Shown one piece after another: positions 2,619 through 59,309 of a stretch of DNA of 59,309 bases. Made by a program: the position numbers and the translations under genes. This stretch comes from a virus, in the IMG/VR virus record IMGVR_UViG_3300010392_000374, positions 1-59,309 of that record, one strand, 5' to 3'. The stretch's first letter is position 1. The number at the start of each line of letters is the position of its first letter. The notes below the pieces were generated by a model. That model searched no databases and had not been told where the DNA came from. It saw only the letters and a program-made list of their open reading frames with translations.

Positions 2619-3616
2619 TGCCATACAGAGAAATCACTAGCTATTCTGATCTTAGTTATACAGGATTCTTAGATTCCTGCTCTAAGAAGAAACTTCTTGA
2701 GAATGGTTCAGCTTGGGTTGCACTAGACTACCCCAAAGGTGCTCCACTGTCTATACACCTAGAGCACGATTCAATCCGGTGTGCCGGTAACACCTTGATG
2801 TATAACTATGGCGAAGATAACTCATATCACTACTATGGGTATCGAGAGATCAAGAAGAAAGAATGGTGGGAAGATTTAGTTCACTACCATTCATTACATA
2901 GATTTAAAATCCCAAAAGGAAAATCTATCGTGATCCATGGGCTTATCGTATCTCCACAAGTATCTCAATCGGATCATGCTTTAGCTTGTAAAACAGAGTA
3001 CTCTCCTTCTGTAGAGTTTATTGCTTTGGATATCTCTGACGTAAACTCTAAGTACATCAGCTATGAGAACTATATTAATTTCTGTGAAGAGTTTGGTATC
3101 CCTGTTCTTCCTGAGATTAAGACAGGTGGCTTCAAGCAATTGGCTAATATGGATCTCAAGGGTATTGATAGTAAAATCTGGAAGGAACTAACAGGAGAAC
3201 ACAAGAAAAATAACCCACTTCATAGAGTTATCCTGCGACCTATTCAGAATCTTTATAACGATACCTATAACAATCGTCCTATCTTTATCAAGAACGCATC
3301 GTATACGTACAACCTTGAGTCTCTCAATGTGAAACACAAAGACGTGGACTTCCAAGAGTTCTTCTTAGATGTACTTAACTTGATTGATAAAGAGGACTTC
3401 AAAGAAATTATCCCTGAAGGCACTATGAATAAGGGATATATCTCTAAAGAATCTGGTAAGCAATTCTCTAGGGTTCTTAAATATGTAGAAGATATTTATG
3501 GAATTAGAACTAGAGAAACCTTTAGTCTTTCTCAATGGAATAAACTCCAGAAGGAAGGACTAAGAAAAGCAACTCGCACCTTAAAAGATATAAAGAAAGA
3601 AAAGGAGGCAGCGTGA
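2618..3616 (+). CDS. Divergent RNA-ligase-like protein (Rnl2 type), probably inactive
   Basis: In this 332-residue protein I see an order of motifs resembling T4 Rnl2-type RNA ligases: a region ending in GAPLSIH near residue 45, KSIVIHGLIV near 108 (motif IIIa-like), EFIALDI near 135, FGIPVLPEI near 160, then HRVILRP near 203 and IFIKN near 222 (motif IV/V-like). The motif I lysine expected before GAPLSIH is not in place (the stretch reads LDYPKGAPL). The glutamate normally heading motif IV is His-Arg. It may therefore be a non-catalytic homologue, or a false match. It is coupled to the nucleotidyltransferase gene upstream. Confidence 0.45.
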   Translation: MPYREITSYSDLSYTGFLDSCSKKKLLENGSAWVALDYPKGAPLSIHLEHDSIRCAGNTLMYNYGEDNSYHYYGYREIKKKEWWEDLVHYHSLHRFKIPKGKSIVIHGLIVSPQVSQSDHALACKTEYSPSVEFIALDISDVNSKYISYENYINFCEEFGIPVLPEIKTGGFKQLANMDLKGIDSKIWKELTGEHKKNNPLHRVILRPIQNLYNDTYNNRPIFIKNASYTYNLESLNVKHKDVDFQEFFLDVLNLIDKEDFKEIIPEGTMNKGYISKESGKQFSRVLKYVEDIYGIRTRETFSLSQWNKLQKEGLRKATRTLKDIKKEKEAA

Positions 3617-4573: not shown

Positions 4574-4851
4574 TGTCAGAAACTAAAGACCAAGAAATCT
4601 TTTACTTAAAAAATAAAGTAAAGAAATTGATCAATAGTTTAGTTGAATTAAAACATGAAAAAGTATTGCTTGAGGCTTGGGCACTTAAAGCTATTACTGT
4701 AGTCGAGTTCGCAGCAGGAGAAGGATTCACTCTTAAGTATCCTTACTATGATTCAGATGAGCTATTATTAGAAGGGGTAAAACTTTTAGGAGTGGAAACT
4801 TCAGAGGAAGTTAGACGTATCTTAGAAGATGAGGAGGAGACTAATAAGTAA
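4573..4851 (+). CDS. Small coiled-coil protein
   Basis: This 92-residue protein has a Lys- and Glu-rich helical N-terminal half (about residues 5-45) predicted to form a coiled coil, and an acidic C-terminus. ATG 4573 was chosen because it overlaps the preceding stop as TGATG. No domain is recognised. Its 3' end overlaps the start region of the primase-helicase, and its GAGGAGGAG near the stop serves as that gene's ribosome binding site. It may be a replication accessory protein by position only. Confidence 0.7.
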   Translation: MSETKDQEIFYLKNKVKKLINSLVELKHEKVLLEAWALKAITVVEFAAGEGFTLKYPYYDSDELLLEGVKLLGVETSEEVRRILEDEEETNK

Positions 4852-6463
4852 GAAATTCACTCAAGGGCCTTGTCCTTGTGGTACTTCATCGGACGCCTTC
4901 ACCGAATATAATGATGGCTCATACCACTGTTTTCGCTGCGGCGATAAAGATATTCCCAAAGAATTTCATAGGGAACATGCTCAAAAAATAAAAGAAGAAA
5001 GAGAGCAAAACTTGTTTGATCCAAAAGAAGGATGGAAGAACGCCAAGACAGAAGCGTTTACTTCTCGTGGGTTGACCACTGATACTGTTAAAAGATTTGG
5101 AGCTAGACTTTTTAGAGATGCTACAGGTAAGCCATCTCATATGTTGTTCCCTTTCGCTAATGAAAAGGGAGATGTTGTAGCTTATAAACGAAAAGGTATT
5201 CTTGAAAGAGACTACGGATTTCACGGTAAAGATAAAGATAATACAGTTTTATTTGGACAACACCTATTTCCAGCCGGAGGTAAATACATTACGATTACTG
5301 AAGGGGAAGTGGATGCAATGTCTTATTGGCAGATCGCTAAGTCCTCTAGAGTACCTGACCCTGCGGTTGTCTCATTAGCCAATGGTGCTAATAGTGTTAA
5401 GAAATCTTTTGAAAATAAAAACGTATACGAGTACGTCAATAGTTTTGAAAACATTATACTCTGTCTAGATAATGATAAACCCGGAAGAGAAGCTACTGAA
5501 GTTCTCATCAGTATGCTTGATCCTAAGAAGATCCGAGTAGTTAAACTAGACAGAAACTTTAAAGATGCTAACGAGTACTTACTCGCTGGTAAGTCTGATG
5601 AGTTTATGAAAGCTTGGTGGAACGCTGAGACTTATAAACCAAACTCAATCCTTACCTTTGATGAAGCTTGGCAGCAAGCTAAAGAGAGAAAGCTATCTAC
5701 ATCTTACCCCTACCCATGGAAAGGCTGGAACGATAAGTCTTATGGTGTACGTATGGGAGAGATGGTAGTTGTAACAGCAGACACTGGCGTAGGTAAGACA
5801 CAGATCTTCAGGGAATTAACTAAACACTTCTATGATACTACTCCGTTCTCTATGGGTGGTATCTTCCTTGAAGAAGTGCCAGCCGCATCTGTAGAGGGAC
5901 TTGTTAGTATGTACGTGAATGCTCCTATTCATTTGCCTGATGCGGAGTATGATAGGTTAGCTGCTGAGAAAATCGCTCAAGATCTTGGGAAGTCTAAAAG
6001 GTTATACTACTACGACGACTTTGGGTCTAATGAGATTGAGAACGTACTTAATAAGGTGCAGTTCTTTGTTAAAGTTCTAGGATGTAAGATGATCTTCCTA
6101 GATCACATCAGTATGATCGTATCAGACCAGAGACATTCTGATGAGCGCAAAGCACTCGATGAAATTGCTACAAGATTAAAGCAATCTACTATTGAGTGGG
6201 ATTATAACCTCCATATGATTGCACACCTTAACCGTGAAGGAGAAATTCGTGGTACTGCAAACATTGAGAAACTTGCTAACATCATCATTAACATTGAGCG
6301 AGACAAGGAAGCGGAAGACCCTAGGATTAGGAATACTACGCGGTGTCTCTTTAAGAAGAATCGCTTTAGTGGTCGCACTGGTTTTGCTAATGATCTCTAT
6401 TATGATGCGGTAACAGGACGAATGGAAGAAGTGTTTGAAGAAGTAGGAGAAGAAACAGAATGA
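4829..6463 (+). CDS. Primase-helicase, T7 gp4-like
   Basis: This bifunctional replication enzyme (up to 544 residues) unwinds DNA 5'-3' and lays primers. Domains in order: a zinc-binding motif CPCG...CFRCG (residues about 15-37); a TOPRIM primase core with EGEVDA near 158 and LDNDKPGRE near 212; a linker; and a DnaB-like RecA fold with Walker A DTGVGKT near 319, Walker B MIFLDHIS near 422 and HLNREGEIRGT near 470. The ATG at 4829 lies within its own putative Shine-Dalgarno. The better-placed start is ATA at 4844, seven bases after GGAGGAG, giving about 539 residues. The polymerase gene shows the same oddity. Confidence 0.95.
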   Translation: MRRRLISKKFTQGPCPCGTSSDAFTEYNDGSYHCFRCGDKDIPKEFHREHAQKIKEEREQNLFDPKEGWKNAKTEAFTSRGLTTDTVKRFGARLFRDATGKPSHMLFPFANEKGDVVAYKRKGILERDYGFHGKDKDNTVLFGQHLFPAGGKYITITEGEVDAMSYWQIAKSSRVPDPAVVSLANGANSVKKSFENKNVYEYVNSFENIILCLDNDKPGREATEVLISMLDPKKIRVVKLDRNFKDANEYLLAGKSDEFMKAWWNAETYKPNSILTFDEAWQQAKERKLSTSYPYPWKGWNDKSYGVRMGEMVVVTADTGVGKTQIFRELTKHFYDTTPFSMGGIFLEEVPAASVEGLVSMYVNAPIHLPDAEYDRLAAEKIAQDLGKSKRLYYYDDFGSNEIENVLNKVQFFVKVLGCKMIFLDHISMIVSDQRHSDERKALDEIATRLKQSTIEWDYNLHMIAHLNREGEIRGTANIEKLANIIINIERDKEAEDPRIRNTTRCLFKKNRFSGRTGFANDLYYDAVTGRMEEVFEEVGEETE

Positions 6464-6999
6464 GCGGTAAAGTTTGGGTAATCAGTGATTTACATTTTGG
6501 ACATGAAAATTGCTGCACTAAATTTAAAAAGAAAGATGGAACTCCATTAAGACCTTATCAATCTTCAAAGGAAATGGATGAGGCTATTGTAGAAAACTGG
6601 AACAGTGTAGTCAGAGAAGGAGATAATGTATTAGTTCTCGGAGATGTGGCTATGTGTGCTAAATCTTTCGATGCTAATATGCCTAAGCTTCTTGGTAGAA
6701 AATATCTTATACGAGGAAACCACGATGTATTTTCTGAAGGAAGATACCAAAGATATTTTAGTAGAATCTTAGGAGTATATGTGAGAGATAACTTTGCGTT
6801 CACTCATGTGCCTATCCACCCCGATAGTGGATCTCGTTGGTTAGGTAACGTACACGGACACGTACATTCTAATACTCTTGATGATCCTTTCTATATTAAT
6901 TGCAGTGTGGAGAACATTGGATTCACTCCAGTGGACTTTGAAGAGATTAAAGAGTTTAGAAAAAGTAAATCCGAAGAGATCTTTAGGAGAGACTTGTGA
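6460..6999 (+). CDS. Calcineurin-like metallophosphoesterase
   Basis: This 179-residue protein has all the metal-binding motifs of the calcineurin-like phosphoesterase family: SDLHFGH (residues 9-15), LGDVA near 61, RGNHD near 85-89, THVPIH near 115 and GHVHS near 132. It is a compact single-domain enzyme that hydrolyses phosphoesters. In phages, relatives are proposed to act as nucleases or cyclic nucleotide/2',3'-phosphate hydrolases. Its ATG overlaps the end of the primase-helicase gene by four bases, so it is co-translated with replication genes. Its substrate is unknown. Confidence 0.9.
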   Translation: MSGKVWVISDLHFGHENCCTKFKKKDGTPLRPYQSSKEMDEAIVENWNSVVREGDNVLVLGDVAMCAKSFDANMPKLLGRKYLIRGNHDVFSEGRYQRYFSRILGVYVRDNFAFTHVPIHPDSGSRWLGNVHGHVHSNTLDDPFYINCSVENIGFTPVDFEEIKEFRKSKSEEIFRRDL

Positions 7000-7127
7000 G
7001 TAAAACTTGCACTGAGTACGGACACAAGTGGAAAATGTGGAGATACTCCTCAGACGGGGAGTCTAAAGTTCGTGAGTGTTCTCGATGTGGTAAGACTGAG
7101 GAGAAACCTGTGAGAAAGGAAGAGTAG
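6996..7127 (+). CDS. Small zinc-ribbon-like protein, GTG start
   Basis: This 43-residue product starts with GTG overlapping the preceding stop (GTGA) behind a TAGGAGA. It contains a Cys at 5, HKW at 10-12 and a CSRCGK knuckle near residues 28-33, the arrangement of short phage zinc-ribbon proteins. It is probably a zinc-binding DNA- or protein-contact factor. No specific function is recognised. Confidence 0.6.
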   Translation: MSKTCTEYGHKWKMWRYSSDGESKVRECSRCGKTEEKPVRKEE

Positions 7128-7128
7128 A

Positions 7129-7212
7129 ATGATTATCTTTGGAATGACTATGTTTACATTGGGAAGTATCTTTGGATATCTTATGTGTAAGCTAGAGATC
7201 TTTGGAGATTGA
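7129..7212 (+). CDS. 27-residue single-span membrane peptide
   Basis: This tiny reading frame begins one base after the previous stop with GGAAGAG as ribosome binding site. The product is almost entirely hydrophobic (IIFGMTMFTLGSIFGYLM), with a short KLEIFGD tail, so it should span the inner membrane once. The compact spacing to both neighbours supports expression. No function can be assigned. Confidence 0.5.
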   Translation: MIIFGMTMFTLGSIFGYLMCKLEIFGD

Positions 7213-7216
7213 AACA

Positions 7217-7399
7217 ATGCCTAAGAAATATAACGTAGGTATTTATGAAGATGACATAATGTTAGGGTGGATTACTTTTGGAGATGTAGTAAAATCTTTT
7301 GATACTAAAGAGGAAGCCAAGAAGTGGATTAAAGAGGCTCACGAAGCTAGGCCTTTTAAGTACAGAGACTCATATGAATACTATTTAATGGAGAATTAA
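7217..7399 (+). CDS. Hypothetical 60-residue protein
   Basis: The product starts MPKKYNVGIYEDD and has a DTKEEAKKWIKEAHEA helix, the look of a small alpha/beta phage protein with no recognised family. ATG 7217 was preferred over the upstream in-frame codon at 7202, because it lies nine bases after GGAG and just after the stop of the membrane peptide gene. The gene sits between replication genes and is presumably co-transcribed with them. Confidence 0.65.
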   Translation: MPKKYNVGIYEDDIMLGWITFGDVVKSFDTKEEAKKWIKEAHEARPFKYRDSYEYYLMEN

Positions 7400-7400
7400 A

Positions 7401-7760
7401 ATGAATCAAACAGAAAAAAGATACATTATTAAACGAATTGATGAGATTGTCTCATCTAAGAGAGCAGAACTTAATAAGAAGTATAGAACGGATCGAGTTT
7501 ATTTAGATAATGATGGAGTTACTAAAGCTCTTATAGAGGGTAGGTTTACTCTTAAAGAGGCCCGAAAGGGGTATACGTCTAATTATTTGAGAGACTTCTT
7601 TGATTTTGACGAAGAAACTAAATCTAGCTTTGATCAAGAATCTTATCAAAAAGAATATGATAAAGTTCTTAAGAAATCTCAAGAGTTGAAAGACGAAGTA
7701 ATGCTTGGGCCAGACTCAGCAGAAGTTCTTAAGAAATTAAAACAACTTGAGAAAATGTAA
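7401..7760 (+). CDS. Hypothetical 119-residue helical protein
   Basis: This is a charged, Lys- and Glu-rich, largely helical protein without recognised motifs. It starts one base after the preceding stop. Its stop is immediately followed by the AAGGA that serves as ribosome binding site of the DNA polymerase at 7771, so polymerase translation may be coupled to it. It is not in frame with the polymerase, so it cannot provide its missing N-terminus. Confidence 0.7.
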   Translation: MNQTEKRYIIKRIDEIVSSKRAELNKKYRTDRVYLDNDGVTKALIEGRFTLKEARKGYTSNYLRDFFDFDEETKSSFDQESYQKEYDKVLKKSQELKDEVMLGPDSAEVLKKLKQLEKM

Positions 7761-7770
7761 GGAATAACCA

Positions 7771-9187
7771 ATAAGACACTTAGCTTTAGATATTGAAGCT
7801 GATAGTCTTATCGGACCAATGGGACAATTACCGTCCCGAATATGGTGTATATGTACTGAAGATTTAGAGACAGGAGAGAAGAGAGATTTTGTACTAGAAG
7901 AATGTTACACTGAGTTCCCGAAGTACGCCAAAGACTTCGATAGGTTCATCGCCCATAACGCTATCGGGTATGATATCCCTGTTCTGTCAGGTCGTACCGA
8001 GTTCTCATGTACATTAAACCAAGTCGTTGATACTTTAGTATTCTCTAAGATTATGAATCCCGATAGGCTCGGTGGACATTCTCTTGAGTCTTGGGGAGAA
8101 AGGTTTAAGTTTCCCAAAGGAGACTGGACAGACTTCTCTAGGTATTCTCCGGAGATGCTTAAGTATTGTAGACGAGATGTTGATCTTCTACGTAAAGTAT
8201 ACTTCAGATTAAAACAAGAACAAAACCACTATAAGGTGCCAGATAAGGCTATTAGATCTGAACACACTATTAAGTATTTAATTAATCAACAAGGTATTAA
8301 TGGTTTCGCTGTAGATACAGACGCCATTGATAGAATGCATAAGGAAGTTTCTGACAGAGCTAATGCTCTGGAGTTAGCTATCCTTAAGAACTTTAAGCCA
8401 ATTGCCAAACCTTTTAAGGGAAACCCCGAAGACTCCATAGTTACTCCTAAGTACAAGAAAGATGGAACTCTATCAGTAGTAGGTCTTAAGTTCTTAGAGG
8501 ATGATTGGGATAAAGTAGACGGGCCTATCACTCGTATTGAGTGGGTACCGTTTGATCTCCATAGTCCTCGTCAAGTTGTTGAACGTATGAATAAACTTGG
8601 ATGGAAACCTGAAGATAAAACTAAGGGACACATCGAAGCAATTAAGAAGTACAAACGAGGGGAGATTGACAAGGAGGCTCTTGAGAAATTTCAGGAGTAT
8701 GGTTGGAAAGTAAACGAGAAAAACTTACAGACATTACCTGAAGATGCTCCTGAGCAAGCTAGACATATCGCTGACTACGTTATGTTGAACTCTAGGCGTA
8801 AGCTTATTGAACAACAGTGGTGGCCTAACATCCAACCAGACGGAAGGATACATGGCTATTGTGATCCTTTAGGTGCTGGCACTCATAGGATGACACATAA
8901 CGGCCCTAACATGGCTAACATTCCCTCAGTCTTACTTGATAAGAAAACTGGTGAGCCTTTGAAGGGCTTTGAAGGCAGATACGGATGGGACTCTAGGGCT
9001 TGTTTTACGGTCGCTGACACGTCAACTCACGTTCTCTTTGGTACAGACGCCTCAGGTCTTGAGTTGCGTATGCTAGCCCACTTTATGGGAGACCCAGAGT
9101 ATGTTCAAGCAGTACTCGGAGATCCTCATACAGTTAACCAACACGCTGCTGGTTTGGATACCAGAGCCCAAGCTAAAACTTTCATCT
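7771..9187 (+). CDS. Family A DNA polymerase, exon 1 (ATA start)
   Basis: This encodes residues 1-472 plus one base of a T7 gp5-like polymerase of about 630 residues. It holds the 3'-5' exonuclease domain (DIEAD at residues 7-11, HNAIGYDIP, and YCRRDVDLL with a further catalytic Asp) and palm motif A (GTDASGLELR near 424). The exonuclease DxE requires translation to begin upstream of the first ATG (7819). A stop lies at 7765-7767, leaving ATA 7771 as the only candidate. It is seven bases after AAGGA. The exon ends inside motif B at KTFI plus the T of a Tyr codon, where a group I intron begins. Confidence 0.9.
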
Positions 9188-9284
9188 AAACTTATTGGAT
9201 GACTTCAGGGAAACCTGTCGATTAAAACTGGGTGAATTCAGGGGAAGTCTCTATGAGATAATCCTGAGCTAAGCCAAATAAAAA

Positions 9285-9313
9285 TTGCATTGAATATATT
9301 TTTATGGTATACT
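9285..9313 (+). promoter_or_regulatory. Sigma70-like promoter inside the intron
   Basis: TTGCAT, a 17-base spacer, and TATACT lie just upstream of the intron endonuclease, whose ATG (9332) follows AAGGAGAG. This gives the endonuclease its own host-type promoter independent of polymerase transcription. Confidence 0.6.
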
Positions 9314-9331
9314 CCCTTAAAAGGAGAGTAA

Positions 9332-9784
9332 ATGTACGCCATAAGAAATAAACCACAGTCTGAAATGACTGCCAACCCTAGTAAATATAGAGTTAAAGAG
9401 TTTAAAGAGAAGCCTTGTAAAGAGTGCGGTAATGTTTTTAGCCCAAAGGCTCCATCTCATTTACATTGTTCTCAAGAGTGTGCCGATAGATCATTAATGA
9501 CAGCGTATCTTTTAAGAAATTATAGTATAACTCTTAATGACTACGAGTACATGTTGAAAATTCAAAACAATAAATGTTCTATATGTAAAACTGAAGGGTT
9601 TGTAATGGACCCAAAAAGACATAAAGTAAAATTAGTTGTAGATCATTGTCACTCTACCGGAGAAGTTAGAGGGCTTTTATGCCACAACTGTAATAGAGCT
9701 TTAGGATTGTTGAAAGATAATGTAGATGTTTTATACAATGCAATAAACTATTTGGAAAGTGCAACGACTATCCGAAAGGAGTAG
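9332..9784 (+). CDS. Endonuclease VII-like HNH homing endonuclease
   Basis: This 150-residue protein probably cuts intron-less polymerase alleles to spread the intron. It has an N-terminal zinc-ribbon-like part (CKECGNVF ... HCSQEC, residues about 30-50) and a C-terminal recombination endonuclease VII-type HNH domain. That domain has CSICKTEG near 87, VVDHCHSTGEVRG near 107 with the catalytic DH, and CHNCNRALG near 122. It lies wholly inside the intron, and its 3' end overlaps the conserved R element of the ribozyme core, so coding and ribozyme sequences constrain one another. It follows a good AAGGAGAG and its own promoter. Confidence 0.9.
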   Translation: MYAIRNKPQSEMTANPSKYRVKEFKEKPCKECGNVFSPKAPSHLHCSQECADRSLMTAYLLRNYSITLNDYEYMLKIQNNKCSICKTEGFVMDPKRHKVKLVVDHCHSTGEVRGLLCHNCNRALGLLKDNVDVLYNAINYLESATTIRKE

Positions 9785-9900
9785 GGCCAAGTGGCTCGAA
9801 GCGCCCAGCCCCCTAGGGGTGATGATATAGTCTGCTCTGCATGGCGACATGTAGCTGCTAGTAAGCGGACTGAGATTAACGACCTCAGTTGAACACAAGG

Positions 9901-10376
9901 ATGCATTCCTCTACGGAGGCGGAGGAGCAAAGTTAGGACAGATTGTTGGTGGAGGGTATAAGGAAGGAATGGAGCTTAAGGAGAGATTTCTTGCTAAAAC
10001 CCCTGCTCTCAATAAGCTTATCAAGAAGATCGAAAGAGAAGCTAAAGAGAAAGGATATGTACGTGGTCTAGACGGCAGAGTCATTCACGTTCGATCTGCT
10101 CATGCGGCTCTTAATACTTTGCTTCAAGGTAACGGAGCAATTGTCTGTAAGTACTGGCTTATCTACATGATGAAGGGAATCATGAAGTATGGCCTTGATG
10201 CTAAACTAGTGGGATCCATACACGACGAATATGAAATTGAGTTGAACAAAAAAGATATTGATATGATGAAAAAAATTGCTAAAGCAGCAATGAAGAAAAC
10301 TGAAAAGGTCTTAGGAGTTACTTGCCCCCTTGATTGTGAATCAGGAGTGGGTACTAATTGGAGCGAAACTCATTAG
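9901..10376 (+). CDS. Family A DNA polymerase, exon 2
   Basis: This is the second exon of the T7-like DNA polymerase, reading from the second base of the Tyr codon (T at 9187 plus AT at 9901). It encodes AFLYGGGGAKLGQIVGGG (rest of motif B), GLDGRVIHVRSAHAALNTLL (fingers) and SIHDEYEIEL with the HDE of motif C near residue 580, ending in NWSETH. The two exons give about 630 residues, close to but shorter than T7 gp5 (704); the thioredoxin-binding loop region looks reduced. The internal ATG at 9969 is not a start. Confidence 0.9.
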
Positions 10377-10383
10377 ATTCCAC

Positions 10384-10412
10384 TTGACAAATCTTAAAAT
10401 CTATGATATAGA
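10384..10412 (+). promoter_or_regulatory. Sigma70-like promoter for the SSB operon
   Basis: TTGACA, a 17-base spacer and TATAGA lie between the polymerase stop and the ssDNA-binding protein gene. It is a near-consensus host promoter and would give the SSB extra transcription, fitting its need at high copy number. Confidence 0.75.
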
Positions 10413-10452
10413 TCTAATCAGATTAATAGCTAAGAATAATAAAGGAAAATAA

Positions 10453-10998
10453 ATGGCTAAGTCAAAACAAAAGAAACAATATAAAATTAAAGGTAGACTT
10501 CAATACTTTACTCCAGACCGTTGGAACTCTTTCTCTACTAAAGAGAACCCTAAGTATGAAGTACAGCTGACAAACATTGAAGAGTTCCCGGAGAACAAAG
10601 AAATCCTTCAGGCTTTCAAGATCCTCGGAGCAGCTACTCGTAAACAAGATAGAGCACCTGAATGGGGTGAAACTCTTACTGGTCGTTCTAACTATCCTAT
10701 TCCTACTATCGACGCCAAGAAGAATCCAATCCCTAAAGATCTCGGAATTGGCAACGGGAGTATTGCATACGTTCTCTTTGAACTGTACCCTACTCCGAAC
10801 AGTAATCACTCTGAATATGGCTTCGGTCCTCGTAAAGTACAAATCCTTGAGCTTGTAGAGTACGAGAAGACAGACAAAGATAGTAAAGCAGATGATATCT
10901 TCGGAGAAGAAGATGGGTTTGCTGCTGAAGTACCCGAAGAAGAAGAAGCTCCGTTCAATACTCAAGATGATGATCTAGACGATGACATTGAGCTTTAA
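10453..10998 (+). CDS. Single-stranded DNA-binding protein
   Basis: This 181-residue protein has a basic N-terminus (SKQKKQYKIKG) and a beta-rich OB-fold-like body with aromatic residues. It has a strongly acidic C-terminal tail (residues about 150-181, ending DDDLDDDIEL), the hallmark of replication SSBs such as T7 gp2.5, whose tail contacts the polymerase and helicase. The position directly after the polymerase and the presence of its own promoter agree. It coats single-stranded DNA during replication and recombination. The family assignment rests on architecture rather than on a specific motif. Confidence 0.75.
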   Translation: MAKSKQKKQYKIKGRLQYFTPDRWNSFSTKENPKYEVQLTNIEEFPENKEILQAFKILGAATRKQDRAPEWGETLTGRSNYPIPTIDAKKNPIPKDLGIGNGSIAYVLFELYPTPNSNHSEYGFGPRKVQILELVEYEKTDKDSKADDIFGEEDGFAAEVPEEEEAPFNTQDDDLDDDIEL

Positions 10999-11170
10999 AG
11001 AACTCTTTAGGTGGTCTGAGTTCAACGATGAGGAGGTTACTTATCGTAGCCTCTTCAGAGTTTCTCGGGAGGAACTTAAAGAGCCAATCTTTAGAGCAGC
11101 ATGTGTATCTGCCTTTAAAGATTCTCTAGAAGATTTTGCTAAAGAGATGGCAGAGAAGGAGTATAAGTAA
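10982..11170 (+). CDS. Hypothetical 62-residue protein
   Basis: This small, acidic, probably helical protein (EELKEPIFRAACVSAFKDSLEDFAKEMAEK) overlaps the SSB gene end by 17 bases and the next gene by one base. No family is recognised. Its position inside the SSB-nuclease operon suggests a replication or recombination accessory role only by association. Confidence 0.6.
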   Translation: MTLSFKELFRWSEFNDEEVTYRSLFRVSREELKEPIFRAACVSAFKDSLEDFAKEMAEKEYK

Positions 11171-11421
11171 TGGACCTAGAGTATGTAAAAGAGTTTTGTA
11201 GGTACTTTAAAGAAGAAATAATTCTATACGATATACAAGATCTTTATTTTATTCCAGAGTCTTCTGATTCTGGAGATTACTTTATTAAAGGACTCTATCT
11301 AGCTAAAGGAGATGTTAAAATGTTTGCTTTTAAAATACCCGATAGTATAGATCTAAGCATACACGATCTCGCTAATATGTCTTTAGTTCGTACTCTTAGT
11401 TCTCTCGGACATATCAGATGA
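11170..11421 (+). CDS. Hypothetical 83-residue protein
   Basis: This small protein with alternating hydrophobic strands (IILYDIQDLYFIP, YFIKGLYLAKG, MFAFKIP) suggests a small beta-sheet fold. It has no recognised family. It is coupled by one- and four-base overlaps to the genes on either side, within the operon leading to the Cas4-like nuclease. Confidence 0.65.
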   Translation: MDLEYVKEFCRYFKEEIILYDIQDLYFIPESSDSGDYFIKGLYLAKGDVKMFAFKIPDSIDLSIHDLANMSLVRTLSSLGHIR

Positions 11422-12284
11422 GTAAAACTGAAGAGAAAACCTTAGACACTCTTGTAGAAGATATCTATTCTATTGTAGAGAATGGTAAAGAGTTCTCTAA
11501 AGAATCTATTAGGAAACTATCACAGCGTATTGCATTGGTAGTTCACGATAGGTGGAAAGAGAGAACTGAAGAAGCTTCAGAGTTTCGTCTAAGACCTAGT
11601 AACATCGGCACTCCTGATAGAAAACTATGGTTTGATTCCAAAGTTCCTGCAGGAGAAAAGAAGTGGGAACCACAACAACTCCTGAACTTTTTCTTTGGAG
11701 ATGTTTGGGAAGAAATTCTTCTCTGGCTTGCTGAAGAGGCAGGACACAAAGTAGAGAACGTACAAGGTAAAGTCTCTATGGAGGGAATGCATGGTAGGAT
11801 GGATGCTAAGATTGATGGCGTTGTAGTAGATGTTAAGACTGCTGCCAATCCTACTAAGTTTACTTTAGGTACAGTTCTTAGAGAAGACCCTTATGGCTAT
11901 ATGCATCAAGCTGCGTTCTATACTCAAGCAGATGAAGGTAAAGACTTTGTGAATTGTGAGAACAACTTCGCTTGGTTGTCTTCAGATAAAATCGGAGGTC
12001 TTCACCTGTTAGAGTTAGATAGTATGGAGCTTCCAGACGCTAGAGGTAGAGTAAGGAAAGCTCGTAAGATCCTTAAGCTTGAAGAGCCACCTGAAGAGAA
12101 ATGCTTTAAGCCTGAACCGTATGGTAAGTCAGGTAATGAAATACTTAACAAGAACTGCACTTGGTGTCCTCATATTAAGGAATGCTGGAAGGGAGAACTT
12201 AGAGCCTTTCAATATGCCAATGGTGTTAAATACTTCACCAAGATAGAAAATGAACCTAATGTACCAGAAGTGGAGATAACATGA
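11418..12284 (+). CDS. Cas4/RecB-like PD-(D/E)XK exonuclease
   Basis: This 288-residue protein has the exonuclease core GRMDAKIDG near residue 127 and VVVDVKT near 136 (Asp...Asp-x-Lys), then MHQAAFYTQ near 165 (the QxxxY motif). A C-terminal cluster, CF near 228 plus CTWC and C near 246-257, suggests a Cas4/AddB-type Fe-S site. Such enzymes degrade single- or double-stranded ends and in T7-like phages replace gp6 for recombination and host DNA breakdown. It is located after the SSB and polymerase in a continuous operon. Confidence 0.85.
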   Translation: MSKTEEKTLDTLVEDIYSIVENGKEFSKESIRKLSQRIALVVHDRWKERTEEASEFRLRPSNIGTPDRKLWFDSKVPAGEKKWEPQQLLNFFFGDVWEEILLWLAEEAGHKVENVQGKVSMEGMHGRMDAKIDGVVVDVKTAANPTKFTLGTVLREDPYGYMHQAAFYTQADEGKDFVNCENNFAWLSSDKIGGLHLLELDSMELPDARGRVRKARKILKLEEPPEEKCFKPEPYGKSGNEILNKNCTWCPHIKECWKGELRAFQYANGVKYFTKIENEPNVPEVEIT

Positions 12285-52420: not shown

Positions 52421-52765
52421 ATGGTCACAGTTAAAGAACACCCTAATTGCTGTGGTATGTATCTCATGTATGGTTTCTACACTAACCAATACGATGCATC
52501 AGCGGGTAACGATGAATATATTACTCAAGAGTTTCTCTCTAGAATGAGAGAATGGAGCTATCACTTTCAGGGCAAACTTGTAGAGATCACACTGAACAAT
52601 TCTCAAATGGAAAACTATCCAAAGCTTATCCAAGAGATGAAGAACCATGGATTCAAGAGAGTTAACATCTTTATAAACAGCAATCACAATAGCGTAGTGA
52701 ACGTATTTCATAGGACTGGAGAGTACTCTGGAGAAGTTCCTACTAATAGAATCTTGGAGTATTAG
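52421..52765 (+). CDS. CCG-family protein 1
   Basis: This 114-residue protein has the defining pattern of a four-member paralogous family: CCGMYLMYGF near residue 8, VEITLNNSQMENYPKLIQEM in the middle, GFKRVNIF, then NSNHNSVVNVFHRTG near the C-terminus. The conserved Cys-Cys-Gly and the terminal Asn/His could form a metal or catalytic site. It follows tRNA-Arg by 18 bases. No known family is recognised. Confidence 0.65.
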   Translation: MVTVKEHPNCCGMYLMYGFYTNQYDASAGNDEYITQEFLSRMREWSYHFQGKLVEITLNNSQMENYPKLIQEMKNHGFKRVNIFINSNHNSVVNVFHRTGEYSGEVPTNRILEY

Positions 52766-52767
52766 AA

Positions 52768-53094
52768 ATGGTTAATTACCTTACCTTTAACTATGATAAT
52801 GGATGTTGTGGTATATACCACCTTAGCGGGTTTAATAGTGACGAGTTTGCTTCATCAGATCTAAAAAATAATCTTAAAGAAGGCGGAGATTATTCCCGAC
52901 ATAAAAAACTTTTCACGATTACACTTACTTCCTATCAAATGGAAGACCTACCTAAGACTCTTAAAGTAATGAAAGAGATTGGGTTTGAAAGGGTATCAGT
53001 GTTTAGGAACAATGGAGGTAATGTCTGCAATACTTTCCATCTTCTGAATAATAAGTGCGGAGATAATCTTACAGGTTTTTACCCGGACTATTGA
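52768..53094 (+). CDS. CCG-family protein 2
   Basis: In this 108-residue paralogue the matching segments are CCGIYHLSGFNSDEF, FTITLTSYQMEDLPKTLKVM, GFERVSVFRNNGGN and VCNTFHLL. It starts two bases after the preceding family member and ends eight bases before tRNA-Gly. The differing central region suggests divergence in target. Confidence 0.65.
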   Translation: MVNYLTFNYDNGCCGIYHLSGFNSDEFASSDLKNNLKEGGDYSRHKKLFTITLTSYQMEDLPKTLKVMKEIGFERVSVFRNNGGNVCNTFHLLNNKCGDNLTGFYPDY

Positions 53095-53331: not shown

Positions 53332-53646
53332 ATGGTCCAGTTCTCACAACTTAGCATATGCCCCACTGTTTGTTATTTAAGTACTGAAGATGGAGGCCCT
53401 AAGATTTGGATTAGGAATGAACATGTAGCTAGTGCTATAGTTGGGTATCTAACTAATACGTATGGACTACACCAAAAACCTAAAGCTATTAAACCGACCA
53501 AGAGAGTACTCATGGTAAAAGAATCCTCATCAGACTCTATGACTGATAAGATTAACTCTTTTTTGAAAGACGGATGGGAACTTAAGGGTAACCCTTTCAT
53601 GTCTCATGGGTACTGGTGTCAACTGATGGAGAAAACTGATGCTTAG
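53332..53646 (+). CDS. Hypothetical protein with DUF1737-like C-terminus
   Basis: This 104-residue protein has a C-terminal part (MTDKINSFLKDGWELKGNP followed by YWCQLM) that resembles the small DUF1737-type domain, in which an INxxLxxGWxxxGxP motif is typical. The N-terminal half has two cysteines (ICPTVCYLS) and IWIRNEHVASAIVGYL. Function unknown. It overlaps the third CCG-family gene by eight bases. Confidence 0.5.
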   Translation: MVQFSQLSICPTVCYLSTEDGGPKIWIRNEHVASAIVGYLTNTYGLHQKPKAIKPTKRVLMVKESSSDSMTDKINSFLKDGWELKGNPFMSHGYWCQLMEKTDA

Positions 53647-54061
53647 TTTGGTAGGGCACGGAGGACACTGCTGTGGTATGTCCCATATCCATAGTTTCTT
53701 TCTGGATCCGGGGAATAGTTACACCAACAGACCTCCAGTAACTGAAGAAGTCCTCATCAAAAAACTGAAAGAAAGAATAGCTGAGATTACTGAGAATACT
53801 AACGAAGATTTTGATCCCGAGTACGATGACGAAGATGATTGGAATGAAGAGAGTCTTTACTCTTTTCGGTCTCATCTGTTTGAGGTGGTACTAACAAATG
53901 ATCAGATGAATTACCTCCCCGAAGTTCTCAAGGAGATGAAACTCATGGGGTTCGTTAGAGTTAATCGTTTCTATAACAGTAACTCAGGAAGTATCTGTAA
54001 CGTATTCCATCTGACTACTAATCAAGAAAACTTACAGGACTCTGAAGAGATAGAGTTCTAA
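53639..54061 (+). CDS. CCG-family protein 3
   Basis: This is the longest family member at 140 residues. It has HCCGMSHIHSFFLDPGN at the N-terminus, an acidic insertion (DFDPEYDDEDDWNEE) not found in the others, then FEVVLTNDQMNYLPEVLKEM, GFVRVNRFYNSNSGS and ICNVFHLT. It ends seven bases before tRNA-Leu. The acidic insertion may alter its partner. Confidence 0.65.
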   Translation: MLSLVGHGGHCCGMSHIHSFFLDPGNSYTNRPPVTEEVLIKKLKERIAEITENTNEDFDPEYDDEDDWNEESLYSFRSHLFEVVLTNDQMNYLPEVLKEMKLMGFVRVNRFYNSNSGSICNVFHLTTNQENLQDSEEIEF

Positions 54062-54170: not shown

Positions 54171-54473
54171 ATGCCTTGGACAAATAATCATGGCGGACGT
54201 TGCTGTGGGGTTACTCACATTGCAGGTATTGGATCAGGTCCATATTGGGATGGTAAATCGAAAACATTCCTTAGTTCGTTTAGTTTTAGTAGGTCTCATT
54301 TGTATGAGATAGTTTTAACCGATCACCAAATGGAACACCTACCTAAGACTCTTGCTAAGATGAAACAACTTAAGTTCAAAAGAGTTTCTCGATTCCTTAA
54401 TTCCAATTCCGGGAACTACTGTAACGTATTTCACAAGCACCCAGTTGCTCGGAAGAAATCTCCGGAGTACTAA
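54171..54473 (+). CDS. CCG-family protein 4
   Basis: In this 100-residue paralogue GGRCCGVTHIAGIGSG, YEIVLTDHQMEHLPKTLAKM, FKRVSRFLNSNSGN and YCNVFHKH align with the three upstream members. It starts 18 bases after tRNA-Leu, repeating the tRNA-then-CCG-gene spacing seen after tRNA-Arg. The lowest-divergence block is NSNSGxxCNVFH. Confidence 0.65.
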   Translation: MPWTNNHGGRCCGVTHIAGIGSGPYWDGKSKTFLSSFSFSRSHLYEIVLTDHQMEHLPKTLAKMKQLKFKRVSRFLNSNSGNYCNVFHKHPVARKKSPEY

Positions 54474-55007: not shown

Positions 55008-55364
55008 ATGAAACTTCTAGTGTATGGTACACTTAAGCGTGGGCGCGGTAACAACTTCCACCTTGAGACCTCTAAGTTCCTAAGAGAAGACTTAACGGCT
55101 AATGCTAGCTACTTCATGACACACGTAGGTTTCCCTCAAGTGTCTGAAAAAGAGGATGGACATTTCATCAAAGGGGAACTCTGGGAAGTAAGTGAACATG
55201 ATCTCCCTCATGTAGATAGGCTTGAAGGTCACCCTGATTGGTATGAACGTAAAGAAGTGGAGCTTATGTCCGGTGAGAAAGCTTGGATGTACATCATGCC
55301 TGAAGAAATTCAGAGCGGATATAAAGTCATGGAGGATGAACAGAATGTTCAAACTTGGGGGTAG
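55008..55364 (+). CDS. Gamma-glutamylcyclotransferase-like protein (AIG2/GGCT fold)
   Basis: This 118-residue protein begins KLLVYGTLKRGRGNN, the YGTLxxG signature of the GGCT fold. It has VDRLEGHPDWYERKEVEL, with the acidic catalytic Glu near residue 75. Such enzymes release gamma-glutamyl groups as 5-oxoproline, or cleave gamma-glutamylamines. It opens the phage amide-bond gene cluster and may trim or recycle a gamma-glutamyl intermediate made by the ligases downstream. Confidence 0.8.
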   Translation: MKLLVYGTLKRGRGNNFHLETSKFLREDLTANASYFMTHVGFPQVSEKEDGHFIKGELWEVSEHDLPHVDRLEGHPDWYERKEVELMSGEKAWMYIMPEEIQSGYKVMEDEQNVQTWG

Positions 55365-56331
55365 TCCATTTACTCCAGAGGACTTTAAAGAAGGAACTGA
55401 TTTAGCTTTAGTAGCTTCTGCTATTGAGTATCTTAATAGTACTGAACATAGGAAAATAGATAGATACTCTGACTCTAAAGAATTGTTATCTGAGTATGAA
55501 GCTCACCATGCACACTTCCTGTTGTCCTATGCTACAGGTCTTCATAGCTACCGTAAAGGAGGTTGTCATTACAATCTACAATACACAGACTCTGGGTGTC
55601 ACTTAGTATCTACTAAAGTTACTATGAGTATGGTTGCTAAGGAAGACTTGGTAGACCTGAAACTGTATTATGATTGGCTGATGAATGAATCCCCTTGGGC
55701 TGATGCGTTTCTTTCTAAGACATACCATGAAGACTATCCTTGGTTGTTCTTACGTACAGATATCCCTTCAAATTTCCTAGCCTCTGCTTGTATTGCTTCA
55801 AGGCAAACTTGGGAAAATGGTAGCAGATTCACACTGTGGAGATCTCTTGTAAATAAAGGTCTGGATAAAAGTTATGCCTTTTTCCTTATGTGTTCTTTCG
55901 GATACGGTGGATTCTACACAGGAAGCTTAGGCCATTGCCCATTGTTTCCCTTTGCTCTTCAGAGAACTCAAGCTCTTAGCTTTGCTCGTAAGCAATACTT
56001 GAGAGATAAACGTAAAGCTCGCCCACTCTATGTGAATAACACCGTCTATTCTTCAGATTACGTTAAAGTATATGACGTATTCAGAGATGAGTCCAATGAG
56101 TTCACCTCAGATCTTTTCGATAAACTTCTTGATGGTATTCAGAAGTATGATCTACCAGCTAAAGCCAGTGTTCTATTTAATGGCACTAAGAAAACTCTGG
56201 AGTTTACCAACCCCTTATCTAAAAAGAAATACCCTTATCCAGACTTTGGTAAGATTCTTACCAGTCACTTGGATAAGTTCACTGATCTTCTAAAGGAGAT
56301 ACAGCCAAAGGAGTTTAGCAATGGCACATAA
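55345..56331 (+). CDS. Unknown protein within the amide-bond cluster
   Basis: This 328-residue protein is assigned ATG 55345, nine bases after GGAGG; it overlaps the cyclotransferase gene by 20 bases. It contains LSEYEAHHAHFLLSYATG, ACIASRQTWENGSRFTLWRS, FFLMCSFGYGGFYTGS and a C-terminal beta/helix part. No known family is recognised. Its invariant place between a cyclotransferase and a glutamine amidotransferase suggests that it is a substrate carrier or binding protein of the pathway; this is inference. Confidence 0.65.
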   Translation: MFKLGGSPFTPEDFKEGTDLALVASAIEYLNSTEHRKIDRYSDSKELLSEYEAHHAHFLLSYATGLHSYRKGGCHYNLQYTDSGCHLVSTKVTMSMVAKEDLVDLKLYYDWLMNESPWADAFLSKTYHEDYPWLFLRTDIPSNFLASACIASRQTWENGSRFTLWRSLVNKGLDKSYAFFLMCSFGYGGFYTGSLGHCPLFPFALQRTQALSFARKQYLRDKRKARPLYVNNTVYSSDYVKVYDVFRDESNEFTSDLFDKLLDGIQKYDLPAKASVLFNGTKKTLEFTNPLSKKKYPYPDFGKILTSHLDKFTDLLKEIQPKEFSNGT

Positions 56332-56956
56332 AGTGTATATGCCAGTACCAACCGCCTCAGTGTCTCTAATGTTTAAGAACAGGGGGTGGGAAATTACTTC
56401 CTTTGATGAAGCTGATGTTATTCAGTTCACTGGAGGGGCAGACATCTCTCCCTCTCTATACGGAGAACTACCCCATCATCTTACTACATGTGATCCTCAA
56501 AGGGATATGGTAGAGAGGGCTGTGTTTCTTAAAGCAGTAGAGAAAAAGAAAGTTATTGCAGGAATCTGTCGAGGTGGTCAGTTCTTGAATGTTATGAACG
56601 GAGGTAGACTCTGGCAAGATGTAGATGAACACGGAACCACTCATCCTATTCACGTTCTAGCCCATAAGTTCTTCGACATAAAACTTGAGAGAACTATCCA
56701 AGCCACTAGCACCCACCATCAGATGATGATTCCTGCTTCTCATGCGGAACTCATTGCTTATGCTAAACGTTCTAAGTATAAAACTACAGTGGACTCTAAA
56801 GGTAGACCTACTAAAATTAAGGTAGACGGTACCTCTAATAAGGATGCTGAGATTTTATACTACAGAGACACTAAAAGTATTTGTTTTCAACCCCACCCTG
56901 AGTATAGTCACGCTTCAAAAGATTTGACTAACTTGTACTTTCAACTAATCTCTTAA
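56321..56956 (+). CDS. Class I glutamine amidotransferase (peptidase C26/PuuD-like)
   Basis: This 211-residue protein has the elements of the class I GATase triad: AGICRGGQFLNV near residue 86 with the nucleophilic Cys, and FQPHPEYSH near 188 with the catalytic His and Glu. TSTHHQMMI near 130 is typical of the gamma-glutamyl-GABA hydrolase branch. It would hydrolyse a gamma-glutamyl amide or supply ammonia. It overlaps the preceding gene by 11 bases. Confidence 0.85.
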   Translation: MAHKVYMPVPTASVSLMFKNRGWEITSFDEADVIQFTGGADISPSLYGELPHHLTTCDPQRDMVERAVFLKAVEKKKVIAGICRGGQFLNVMNGGRLWQDVDEHGTTHPIHVLAHKFFDIKLERTIQATSTHHQMMIPASHAELIAYAKRSKYKTTVDSKGRPTKIKVDGTSNKDAEILYYRDTKSICFQPHPEYSHASKDLTNLYFQLIS

Positions 56957-56968
56957 CAAGGAAAAGAT

Positions 56969-58093
56969 ATGTGTGGTATCGTAGGAGCTATCGGCTCTCT
57001 GTCTCATAAACATGAAGAAGCATTCCGCTTTCTTCTTTGGTTGGATACCTTGCGGGGTATGGACTCAACCGGAGCTGTATCTATTGATCCTACTAATGGT
57101 AGATACAAGATGGAAAAATCAGTAGCATCTGGTTTTGAATTGCTAACCCCTAAAGGTCTCAACAGTCGTAGCTTTGATTGGGATTCCAAACGATTTGAAA
57201 GGATCACTCAAGGGGCTAATCAAATCCTTATTGGTCACAACCGCGCGGCAACTCGTGGTGTAGTGAAACAATCAAATGCCCATCCGTTCCATATTGGTGC
57301 GTTCCTTGGTGTTCACAATGGTACACTTCACGGCCAACATAAACTTCCAGACTACCACGACTTTGAAGTTGATAGTGAAAACATCATCCATTCTTTTGAT
57401 AAGATTGGAGAGAAAGAAACTCTTGAGCTTATTCATGGTGCGTATGCTCTAGTCTGGTGGAACGGTAGAGATAAGACGGTTAATTTTGCTCGTAATAAAG
57501 AACGTCCAATGTTTATGTGCGTAACTAAAGACGCTAAAGTTATCTTCTTCGCTTCTGAAAAGGGTATGCTTCAGATGGCGATGGATCGTTACGAGATTGA
57601 AGTTGATAAATATGAGCAGCTTCCTGTTGGACAGCTCTATAAGTTTACTATCCCTAAGAGGGGAGATGAGTTCACTAAACCGAAAGTGACACCCTTCACG
57701 GTTTTTACCTACACGACTACCTCTCGCTCTGTGGGGAACACGAGTACCTCCCCTTGGGCTGGCCGTGACAAAAAGCAAGAGCAAAAACTCCTCGACAAAC
57801 CTGCCAATAATGTGGTTGATATTGGTGGCAACTCTAGTCGCTTTAATCATAAAGAGTTTTTCTTTGCTCCATTAAAAACATCTAGTGTCTCATGGTCTCT
57901 AGGTGAAGGAGGTAGGGAAGTAACAGAGAAAGAAATGATTAACATCCTTGGATGCGGTTGTGCTAATTGTAGCAAACCTACTCCATTTCTTGCTCTTGAG
58001 ACTGTAAGCTTCTTCGGAGGTGATCAGTATCTTTGTAATGTTTGCATGGATGGGATTAAGAAAGATGATAGATTCCACCAGCATATCCACTAG
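56969..58093 (+). CDS. Class II glutamine amidotransferase with C-terminal zinc ribbon
   Basis: This 374-residue protein has an N-terminal nucleophile domain (MCGIVGAIGS with Cys2), then LRGMDSTGAVS, IGHNRAATRG and VHNGTLHG, matching GlmS/PurF-type GATases that release ammonia from glutamine. No synthetase domain follows. Instead a Thr/Ser/Pro linker leads to a C-terminal cysteine cluster (GCGCANCSK and CNVCMDG), probably a zinc-bound module. It would feed ammonia to the separate ligases of the cluster. Confidence 0.85.
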   Translation: MCGIVGAIGSLSHKHEEAFRFLLWLDTLRGMDSTGAVSIDPTNGRYKMEKSVASGFELLTPKGLNSRSFDWDSKRFERITQGANQILIGHNRAATRGVVKQSNAHPFHIGAFLGVHNGTLHGQHKLPDYHDFEVDSENIIHSFDKIGEKETLELIHGAYALVWWNGRDKTVNFARNKERPMFMCVTKDAKVIFFASEKGMLQMAMDRYEIEVDKYEQLPVGQLYKFTIPKRGDEFTKPKVTPFTVFTYTTTSRSVGNTSTSPWAGRDKKQEQKLLDKPANNVVDIGGNSSRFNHKEFFFAPLKTSSVSWSLGEGGREVTEKEMINILGCGCANCSKPTPFLALETVSFFGGDQYLCNVCMDGIKKDDRFHQHIH

Positions 58094-58102
58094 GAGAATT
58101 AA

Positions 58103-58960
58103 ATGAAGATTAGTATTGGTTCTGATCCTGAAGTTTTTGTCTATAACAGAAACACAGGAAACGTGGTGTCTCCTCATACGTTCTCAACAGGAGATAAAGA
58201 TAAGCCCGAACTTATCGAAGGTCTTGATGGCTATGGCCTACAGGTAGATGGCTTCGCTCTGGAGTACAACACAGCTCCAGTGGAGGTAGACCTTACAGAT
58301 CCCAAGAGTAGAGCAAGAGGGCCTGATCAATTTGCCTCCCGGTCTAATCTTATGCTTGGTGAAATTTACAATCGAATTAGTAACACTAAGCTTAAAGGAA
58401 GCAGATATCTTGATCTTTATCAAAAGTCTATGGTGACTATCCCCGAAGATATCTTTAAAGATGCTCCGGATAAAGTTAAAGAGCTTGGATGTGATCCAGA
58501 TTATAACGCATGGACTGGAGAACAAAACAATCCACCTAAACCTGAAGAACCTATCAGAGCAGCGGGTGGACATATTCATGTAGGTTGGACCAAAGATCAA
58601 GACGTAACTGATGCAGCTCACCTTGGGTTGTGTAAGAGCGCTGTTCGCCAGCTTGACTTCACTCTTGGTCTCATGTCTGTGATTCGAGACGTGAGAGGTA
58701 TGGACCGCCGTAAGCTCTACGGAAAAGCTGGAGCATTTCGTCCCAAGTCTTATGGTGTTGAGTACCGTTCTCTGTCTAACTTCTGGATCTTCAACAGTGG
58801 GATTGCAGGAAGAGTAGCTTCTCTTGTCTTCCGATCCATGGATGATCTTACTAATGGTGTTGTCTATGAGGAAATTTATGGAGACCCTCAACATGCCATC
58901 AACAATGGAGACTCTAAGTATGCTAAAGAGTTCTTCAAAGCTCAAGGCTTAAGTTACTAA
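58103..58960 (+). CDS. COOH-NH2 ligase, phiEco32 type 2 (amidoligase superfamily)
   Basis: This 285-residue protein has IGSDPEVFVYN at the N-terminus (acidic metal-binding pair), VDGFALEYNTAPVEV near residue 49, AGGHIHVGW near 154, and YGKAGAFRPKSYGVEYRSLS near 212-230. These are the Glu/His/Arg elements of the glutamine-synthetase-like ligase family found in phages. It would ligate a carboxylate and an amine using ATP. It is the second, distinct amidoligase of this genome, nine bases after the GATase gene. Confidence 0.85.
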   Translation: MKISIGSDPEVFVYNRNTGNVVSPHTFSTGDKDKPELIEGLDGYGLQVDGFALEYNTAPVEVDLTDPKSRARGPDQFASRSNLMLGEIYNRISNTKLKGSRYLDLYQKSMVTIPEDIFKDAPDKVKELGCDPDYNAWTGEQNNPPKPEEPIRAAGGHIHVGWTKDQDVTDAAHLGLCKSAVRQLDFTLGLMSVIRDVRGMDRRKLYGKAGAFRPKSYGVEYRSLSNFWIFNSGIAGRVASLVFRSMDDLTNGVVYEEIYGDPQHAINNGDSKYAKEFFKAQGLSY

Positions 58961-58969
58961 AGGTGTGAA

Positions 58970-59309
58970 ATGTTTTCAAACTCTATCACAAGCAGAGACC
59001 TATCACAAAAGATCTTTAACACTATCGTCTTGTACGATAATCTTCCTGTGTTCGTAACAGATATCACTGAAGCTCGTATGGTTTACTTCCATGCTCTTGA
59101 TGGTTCGGAGATTATCAAAGCCAAGTATGATAGTCCCAAGTTCAACTACAAGCCCTTCCCTCTTGGGTATGTTAACGTAGCGAACAACGCTCATTACCTT
59201 GAACGTATGCCTATGCGACACTACAAGCAAGGTTTAGAAGCAAGAGCTGTTACAGTCTCTAGTCCAAGGGTCTCTATGAATACCGGCGCACTATTGCGCA
59301 AGCCCTTGT
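58970..59309 (+). CDS. Junction-spanning phage protein, N-terminal part
   Basis: ATG 58970 begins the 192-residue protein that continues at position 128 after circularisation (stop at 364-366). The start follows AAAGGTG by four bases. The N-terminal part (SNSITSRDLSQKIFNTIVLYD, DNLPVFVTDITEARMVYFHA) is an alpha/beta domain without recognised motifs. Its place between the two amidoligase genes suggests a shared pathway. Confidence 0.85.
   Translation, partial: MFSNSITSRDLSQKIFNTIVLYDNLPVFVTDITEARMVYFHALDGSEIIKAKYDSPKFNYKPFPLGYVNVANNAHYLERMPMRHYKQGLEARAVTVSSPRVSMNTGALLRKPL
59183..59309. repeat. Terminal direct repeat, right copy
   Basis: Identical to positions 1-127. It shows the contig is circularly closed or terminally redundant, with a unit length of 59,182 bp. 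Confidence 0.97.

Follow-up and report, generated by a model that had tools for sequence, protein, structure and literature searches.

A phage cassette of predicted amide ligases and glutaminases with two near-constant partner families in IMG/VR virus record IMGVR_UViG_3300010392_000374

RIO-1-like phages carry a seven-gene "peptidoglycan modification cassette" that is hypothesized to prevent superinfection, and phiEco32, 7-11, PA11, tf, MR299-2, LUZ24, PaP3, and CW02 are listed as carriers in a report that credits Hardies 2013 and Iyer for the cassette (PMC5498523). The same cassette and the same hypothesis appear for a LUZ24-like phage (PMC11945000), and in PSA-HP1 the cassette genes are expressed immediately after infection (PMC7082346). 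In the literature we found no experiment on the product of the cassette, on altered host peptidoglycan, or on superinfection exclusion. Here we analyze such a cassette in the 59,309 nucleotides of IMG/VR virus record IMGVR_UViG_3300010392_000374 (positions 1 to 59,309; hereafter the window), in which a COOH-NH2 ligase, an amidoligase, an ATP-grasp ligase, glutamine amidotransferases (GATases), and a gamma-glutamyl cyclotransferase (GGCT) are all encoded in one operon. The cassette is not new, as the system has already been described, including RIO-1 and PSA-HP1. What is added here is the definition of a constant core of seven genes, the membership of two unknown protein families, U328 and U192, in it, the link to a family of small proteins, CCG, encoded upstream, and the restriction of the complete cassette essentially to phages. 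An earlier interpretation of this DNA from its letters alone (the sequence-only reading) had connected the locus to predicted phage amidoligase neighborhoods, and this connection is correct.

The window ends in an exact 127-bp direct repeat (1-127 and 59183-59309). Since 127 is a common assembler k-mer length, the repeat is probably the overlap of a circular assembly and not a biological terminus. Removal of one copy leaves a circle of 59,182 bp, on which the last open reading frame (ORF) has 192 codons (58970-59182 and 1-366), so that it does run through the circle junction as the sequence-only reading had supposed. The six consecutive plus-strand ORFs from 55008 to the junction agree with that reading too; its limits, 55008-59309, split the operon in two, as the run goes on past the junction up to 1995. 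Altogether the cassette consists of eight plus-strand genes, encoding a GGACT-type GGCT of 118 residues (55008-55364), the 328-residue protein U328 (55345-56331), a PuuD-like class I glutaminase of the Peptidase_C26 family (56321-56956), a class II (N-terminal nucleophile, Ntn) glutaminase with a C-terminal Cys4 zinc ribbon (56969-58093), a glutamine-synthetase-like COOH-NH2 ligase of type 2 (58103-58960), U192, an Amidoligase_2 protein (368-1240), and an ATP-grasp ligase, probably of RimK/R2K type (1240-1995). U192 is interrupted by the window ends, with its N-terminal codons up to the junction at 58970-59309, where the last 127 bp repeat bases 1-127, and its C-terminal 121 codons at 1-366. 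The intergenic spacings are -20 to +12 nt throughout, i.e., overlaps or gaps of 1-12 nt, which makes a single transcription unit probable. Replication genes (primase/helicase, DNA polymerase, and others) lie 3' of the cassette at 4829-12284, and the cassette is thus located among transcription and replication genes. No close relative of this phage was found among phage records.

The expected catalytic residues of the cassette enzymes are present and conserved in alignments with homologs from CW02, O4, LUZ24, tf, phiEco32, CVT22, KIT05, Phriendly, Pecta, and others, and the four enzyme identities proposed by the sequence-only reading (GGACT, class I GATase, class II GATase, and COOH-NH2 ligase) are all borne out. 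The GGACT protein (Pfam GGACT, 6.3e-19) aligns with cassette GGCTs across the YGTL and RLEG motifs. In the class I GATase (Pfam 1.1e-19) the Cys-His-Glu triad C83, H192, and E194 is invariant, and the nearest PDB relatives by sequence are the C26 proteins 3fij and 7d4r. The class II GATase (Pfam GATase_6, 4.8e-17) begins with MCGIVGA, which provides Cys2 after Met1 as nucleophile, and its glutamine-site residues are conserved. The zinc ribbon claimed for it is likewise real, with Cys 331, 334, 356, and 359 kept in at least 90% of 16 homologs. The COOH-NH2 ligase scores 40.1 bits against PF14395 (cut-off 25; 3.2e-10) and matches PHROG 3815 at 7e-57, and 34 invariant columns are kept. Amidoligase_2 scores 34.9 bits against PF12224 (cut-off 22; 1.9e-08) with conserved ExExE, HxH, and ExR motifs; it starts at about 368, and the GTG at 281, where the mechanical ORF begins, is an unlikely start. 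For the ATP-grasp ligase the Pfam scores are near threshold (R2K_2 26.5 bits with a cut-off of 26.2, 6.8e-06; RimK 20.5 bits with a cut-off of 21, 3.8e-04), and PHROG 2599 is matched at 4.5e-89. Its residues K72, R109, E228, and N230 are conserved, and its best PDB relatives by sequence are alpha-L-glutamate ligases.

The closest described relatives are the cassettes of the RIO-1/PSA-HP1-like podoviruses, which have the same gene set, and those of the Zobellviridae CW02, O4, and CVT22, which share both the set and the order U328, GATase I, GATase II, ligase, U192, amidoligase, ATP-grasp. However, identity to both groups is low (34-39% for the ligase, about 20% for U328), and the window additionally has four CCG genes upstream. 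The GGACT gene precedes U328 in the window, whereas in CW02 it follows the ATP-grasp gene. PhiEco32, LUZ24, and tf have the ligase, U192, amidoligase, GATase II, ATP-grasp, and GGCT in common with the window, but their GATase II gene lies after the amidoligase gene, neither U328 nor a class I GATase can be detected, and their ligase gene is preceded by genes for two different unknown proteins. Outside phages, PuuA/PuuD, EgtA/EgtC, and BtrJ/BtrG of butirosin synthesis pair amide ligases with C26, class II, or GGCT-type enzymes that remove gamma-glutamyl groups. These systems use other ligase families, whereas the window combines three predicted ligases in a phage-borne system.

Co-occurrence was surveyed in 80 other viral (IMG/VR) contigs that were fetched by an alignment of the COOH-NH2 ligase, with contig ends considered and the partners not selected for; searches for related loci with single window proteins, or with alignments of U328 or U192, returned nothing. 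Class II GATase and Amidoligase_2 are each present in 79 of 79 testable loci, U192 in 79 of 80, the ATP-grasp ligase in 78 of 79, and class I GATase in 73 of 74, and hence the genes co-occur far beyond chance. U328, for which the sequence-only reading had proposed a neighborhood survey, is found in 62 of 70 testable loci, 61 of which have the class I GATase gene directly after it. Both possible refutations named by that reading, motif residues that vary on alignment and absence of the gene set from other phages, are therefore contradicted. The constant core thus comprises seven genes, the cassette minus GGACT, and includes the two unknown families. The COOH-NH2 ligase occurs in 312 phage records, and the hosts of these phages include E. 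coli, Pseudomonas, Vibrio, and Klebsiella. Since only 11 loci, all on metagenome-assembled contigs, were recovered from 84,980 bacterial and archaeal genomes, the complete cassette is essentially a phage trait. Eight of these 11 loci have several phage-type cassette genes, one (L107) has the ligase alone, and two (L109 and L111, Geobacteraceae and Stahlbacteria) have a related COOH-NH2 ligase together with C26 and GGCT genes, but neither U192 nor amidoligase, ATP-grasp, or GATase II. The latter two are possibly a reduced cellular or a divergent viral module.

U328 and U192 are near-constant members of the cassette. U328 has 328 residues from its ATG and would have 369 if the TTG at 55222 were used. 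None of 43 family members gives a convincing Pfam match (stray matches only). The AlphaFold model has a predicted local distance difference test (pLDDT) score of 73.6 overall and about 90 across the core, approximately residues 51-180; it has no fold match in the PDB, and its significant matches in a viral library are unnamed or uncharacterized phage proteins, several of them from cassette-bearing phages. Among 43 homologs C74 and R153 are invariant, E157 is kept in 42, and H197 in 37. As this Cys/Arg/Glu/His set resembles a catalytic site, U328 is more like an enzyme or ligand-binding protein than a carrier, and we regard it as a candidate thiol enzyme. The proposal of the sequence-only reading that it serves as substrate or carrier is not supported, since the conserved core is confidently modeled and no carrier feature was seen in the protein. 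For U192, Pfam gave no convincing family, and PDB profile searches with U328 and U192 returned matches at chance level. A model of U192 obtained through a homolog (pLDDT 96.0) has as top PDB resemblances mostly EF-P, eIF5A, or HEX-1, with E values of 0.07-1 and poor superposition. This is not significant and would be a hint at a beta-barrel fold, not at a relationship. The proteins LUZ24 gp14/gp15, tf_17/18, and phiEco32 gp87/88 were considered as U328 homologs and rejected, as they have no hidden Markov model support (phiEco32 gp87, best E 0.37 in the full ORF set). In common with U328 and the CCG proteins, to which they have no detectable homology, they do contain a C-[FYC]-[GA] motif close to the N-terminus.

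Upstream of the cassette, four small paralogs with a common N-terminal CCG motif are encoded on the plus strand between 52421 and 54473 (52421-52765, 52768-53094, 53639-54061, and 54171-54473), interleaved with tRNA genes (tRNA-Arg, Gly, Leu). Pfam gave no convincing family for them. A profile of the four paralogs detects relatives in many cassettes, often in multiple copies, where they immediately precede U328, GATase I, GATase II, or GGCT. The start of the cassette neighborhood in the window therefore lies about 2.6 kb upstream of the one assumed by the sequence-only reading. CCG proteins are present in seven of the eight cassettes that have no U328, compared with 16 of the 62 that have it (Fisher p=0.0013). 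Homology between the two families, both of which have a Cys motif, was considered and rejected (hhalign probability 0.2%), and we therefore propose CCG only as a functional replacement of U328. The association of CCG with the cassette is observed, and we infer from it that these proteins belong to the pathway.

The simplest model is an early amide ligation based on glutamate or glutamine, in which the eight genes are transcribed together and form a single pathway, by which the infected cell would acquire a product with amide or gamma-glutamyl linkages; we give this a probability of roughly 55%. Each of the three ATP-dependent ligases would form one amide bond. The two glutaminases would be either the source of ammonia for the ligases or enzymes that take gamma-glutamyl groups off again, the part that PuuD plays after PuuA and EgtC after EgtA. 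In cassettes that have GGACT, this enzyme could release a gamma-glutamyl group as 5-oxoproline, like BtrG in butirosin synthesis. U328 would probably be a further enzyme that uses its conserved Cys, and U192 probably a non-catalytic partner or acceptor. Most plausible is either a precursor of the host envelope or a soluble metabolite directed at the host. The model is supported by the family matches, the conserved catalytic residues, the operon spacing, and the co-occurrence of the seven core genes, and moreover by the proximity of the ATP-grasp protein to alpha-L-glutamate ligases and of the class I GATase to 3fij and 7d4r, by the reduced set of ligase, C26, and GGCT in two metagenome-assembled contigs, and by the immediate expression in PSA-HP1 (PMC7082346). 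Several points weigh against it. Only 16 of 67 testable loci have a GGCT gene close to the ligase, and removal of gamma-glutamyl groups by GGACT is therefore not essential. The roles assigned to U328 and U192 are guesses. For the COOH-NH2 ligase and Amidoligase_2, sequence searches of the PDB detect no relative of known structure, so that their specificity cannot be read. Finally, no substrate or product of the cassette is established in the literature found, as the sequence-only reading had stated for the product. Should the cassette turn out to make a wall modification, a metabolite directed at the host, or a protein tag, it would be an unrecognized, widespread strategy of early takeover, and the seven-gene core with its linked small-protein family is a concrete gene list for reconstitution.

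According to the published hypothesis (PMC5498523; PMC11945000), the cassette would remodel the peptide side chains of host peptidoglycan with up to three unusual linkages early in infection and thereby block superinfection. The three ligases do come from families that form peptide bonds, and the predicted wall genes are expressed immediately in PSA-HP1 (PMC7082346). However, no experimental test was found in the literature, no cassette protein scored above cut-off for a murein-specific family (Mur, Ddl, endopeptidase) in the scans made, an ordinary phage amidase (3714-4172) was the sole wall enzyme noted in the vicinity, and the ATP-grasp protein is nearer to RimK than to D-Ala-D-Ala ligase. 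We consider this hypothesis possible, although rather unlikely. The likeness to RimK-type ligases would fit instead an addition of amino acids to proteins of host or phage, in which case U192, CCG, or further small phage proteins could be the substrates, and R2K ligases are predicted to modify proteins (PMC4431377). Many small proteins are encoded in or beside cassettes, some with common C-terminal tails, and CCG is multicopy. But two glutaminases and a cyclotransferase suit small-molecule chemistry better, the likeness of U192 to EF-P/eIF5A is not significant, and the tails hold the ribosome-binding site of the next gene and have no counterpart in the window, which leaves protein modification improbable. 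It is slightly more doubtful still that the small proteins, CCG here and the tail-sharing ones in relatives of Citrovirus type and others, act as scaffolds for the ligases, which would build a product on them or attach it to them, while U328 and U192 would take care of recognition or transfer. A catabolic role, in which gamma-glutamyl bonds of glutamine, glutathione, or peptides are cleaved and recycled for nitrogen and glutamate, would fit three hydrolase families that act on glutamine or gamma-glutamyl bonds, and recycling is mentioned in PMC5498523; yet it does not need the three ATP-consuming ligases, which rank with class II GATase and U192 as the most constant members, and it is very unlikely. 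Modification of DNA bases or nucleotides with an amino-acid-derived group, which the adjoining replication genes might suggest, is highly improbable, as no hydroxymethylase, thymidylate-synthase-like, or base-exchange gene was seen among the window genes scanned, which were part of the ORFs. Protein modification, recycling, and DNA modification are thus all less supported than the glutamate/glutamine-based pathway.

In ten related loci (L001, L002, L009, L010, L013, L023, L042, L056, L081, and L094) many small proteins of the cassette region end in a common tail, which is constant within a genome and differs between genomes (LEEN, LENK, LENE, LEND, MENE, FKGN in two loci, LDEVF, VERLV, and EDIWL). 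Each genome has 5-14 such proteins, e.g., in the region 4388-14270 of L009. Their bodies are unrelated in most loci, whereas a fair share is paralogous in the LDEVF, VERLV, and EDIWL loci. No similar tail family is present in the window, in phiEco32, in O4, or in stretches of T7, N4, T4, and SPO1. A first reading of the tails as protein tags was dropped, since their codons turned out to harbor, for the most part, the Shine-Dalgarno (SD) sequence of the next gene. In several genes that are not directly followed by a start, the tail residues are kept by synonymous, SD-poor codons; selection by SD alone still yields mostly the same residues, and both the nucleotide and the protein level may act. 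Synonymous counts on the tails are biased, since the members were chosen by amino-acid motif, and were not used as evidence. The tails are tied to the cassette by proximity alone. Tagging of the Pup/PafA type, with a small tag, a fixed C-terminal Gln/Glu motif, and a GS-fold ligase, was also rejected, as the window has no common tail and the tails of the relatives differ, with no common last residue.

Two further genes follow the cassette directly, with overlapping ends: one for a nucleotidyltransferase (1995-2618) and one whose product matches RNA ligase very weakly (2618-3616). The phage has four tRNA genes, and this pair possibly serves tRNA repair. Furthermore, the DNA polymerase gene is apparently in two pieces, ORFs 7819-9189 and 9969-10376, which flank an endonuclease VII-like gene (9332-9784); this suggests an intron or a gene-splitting mobile element.

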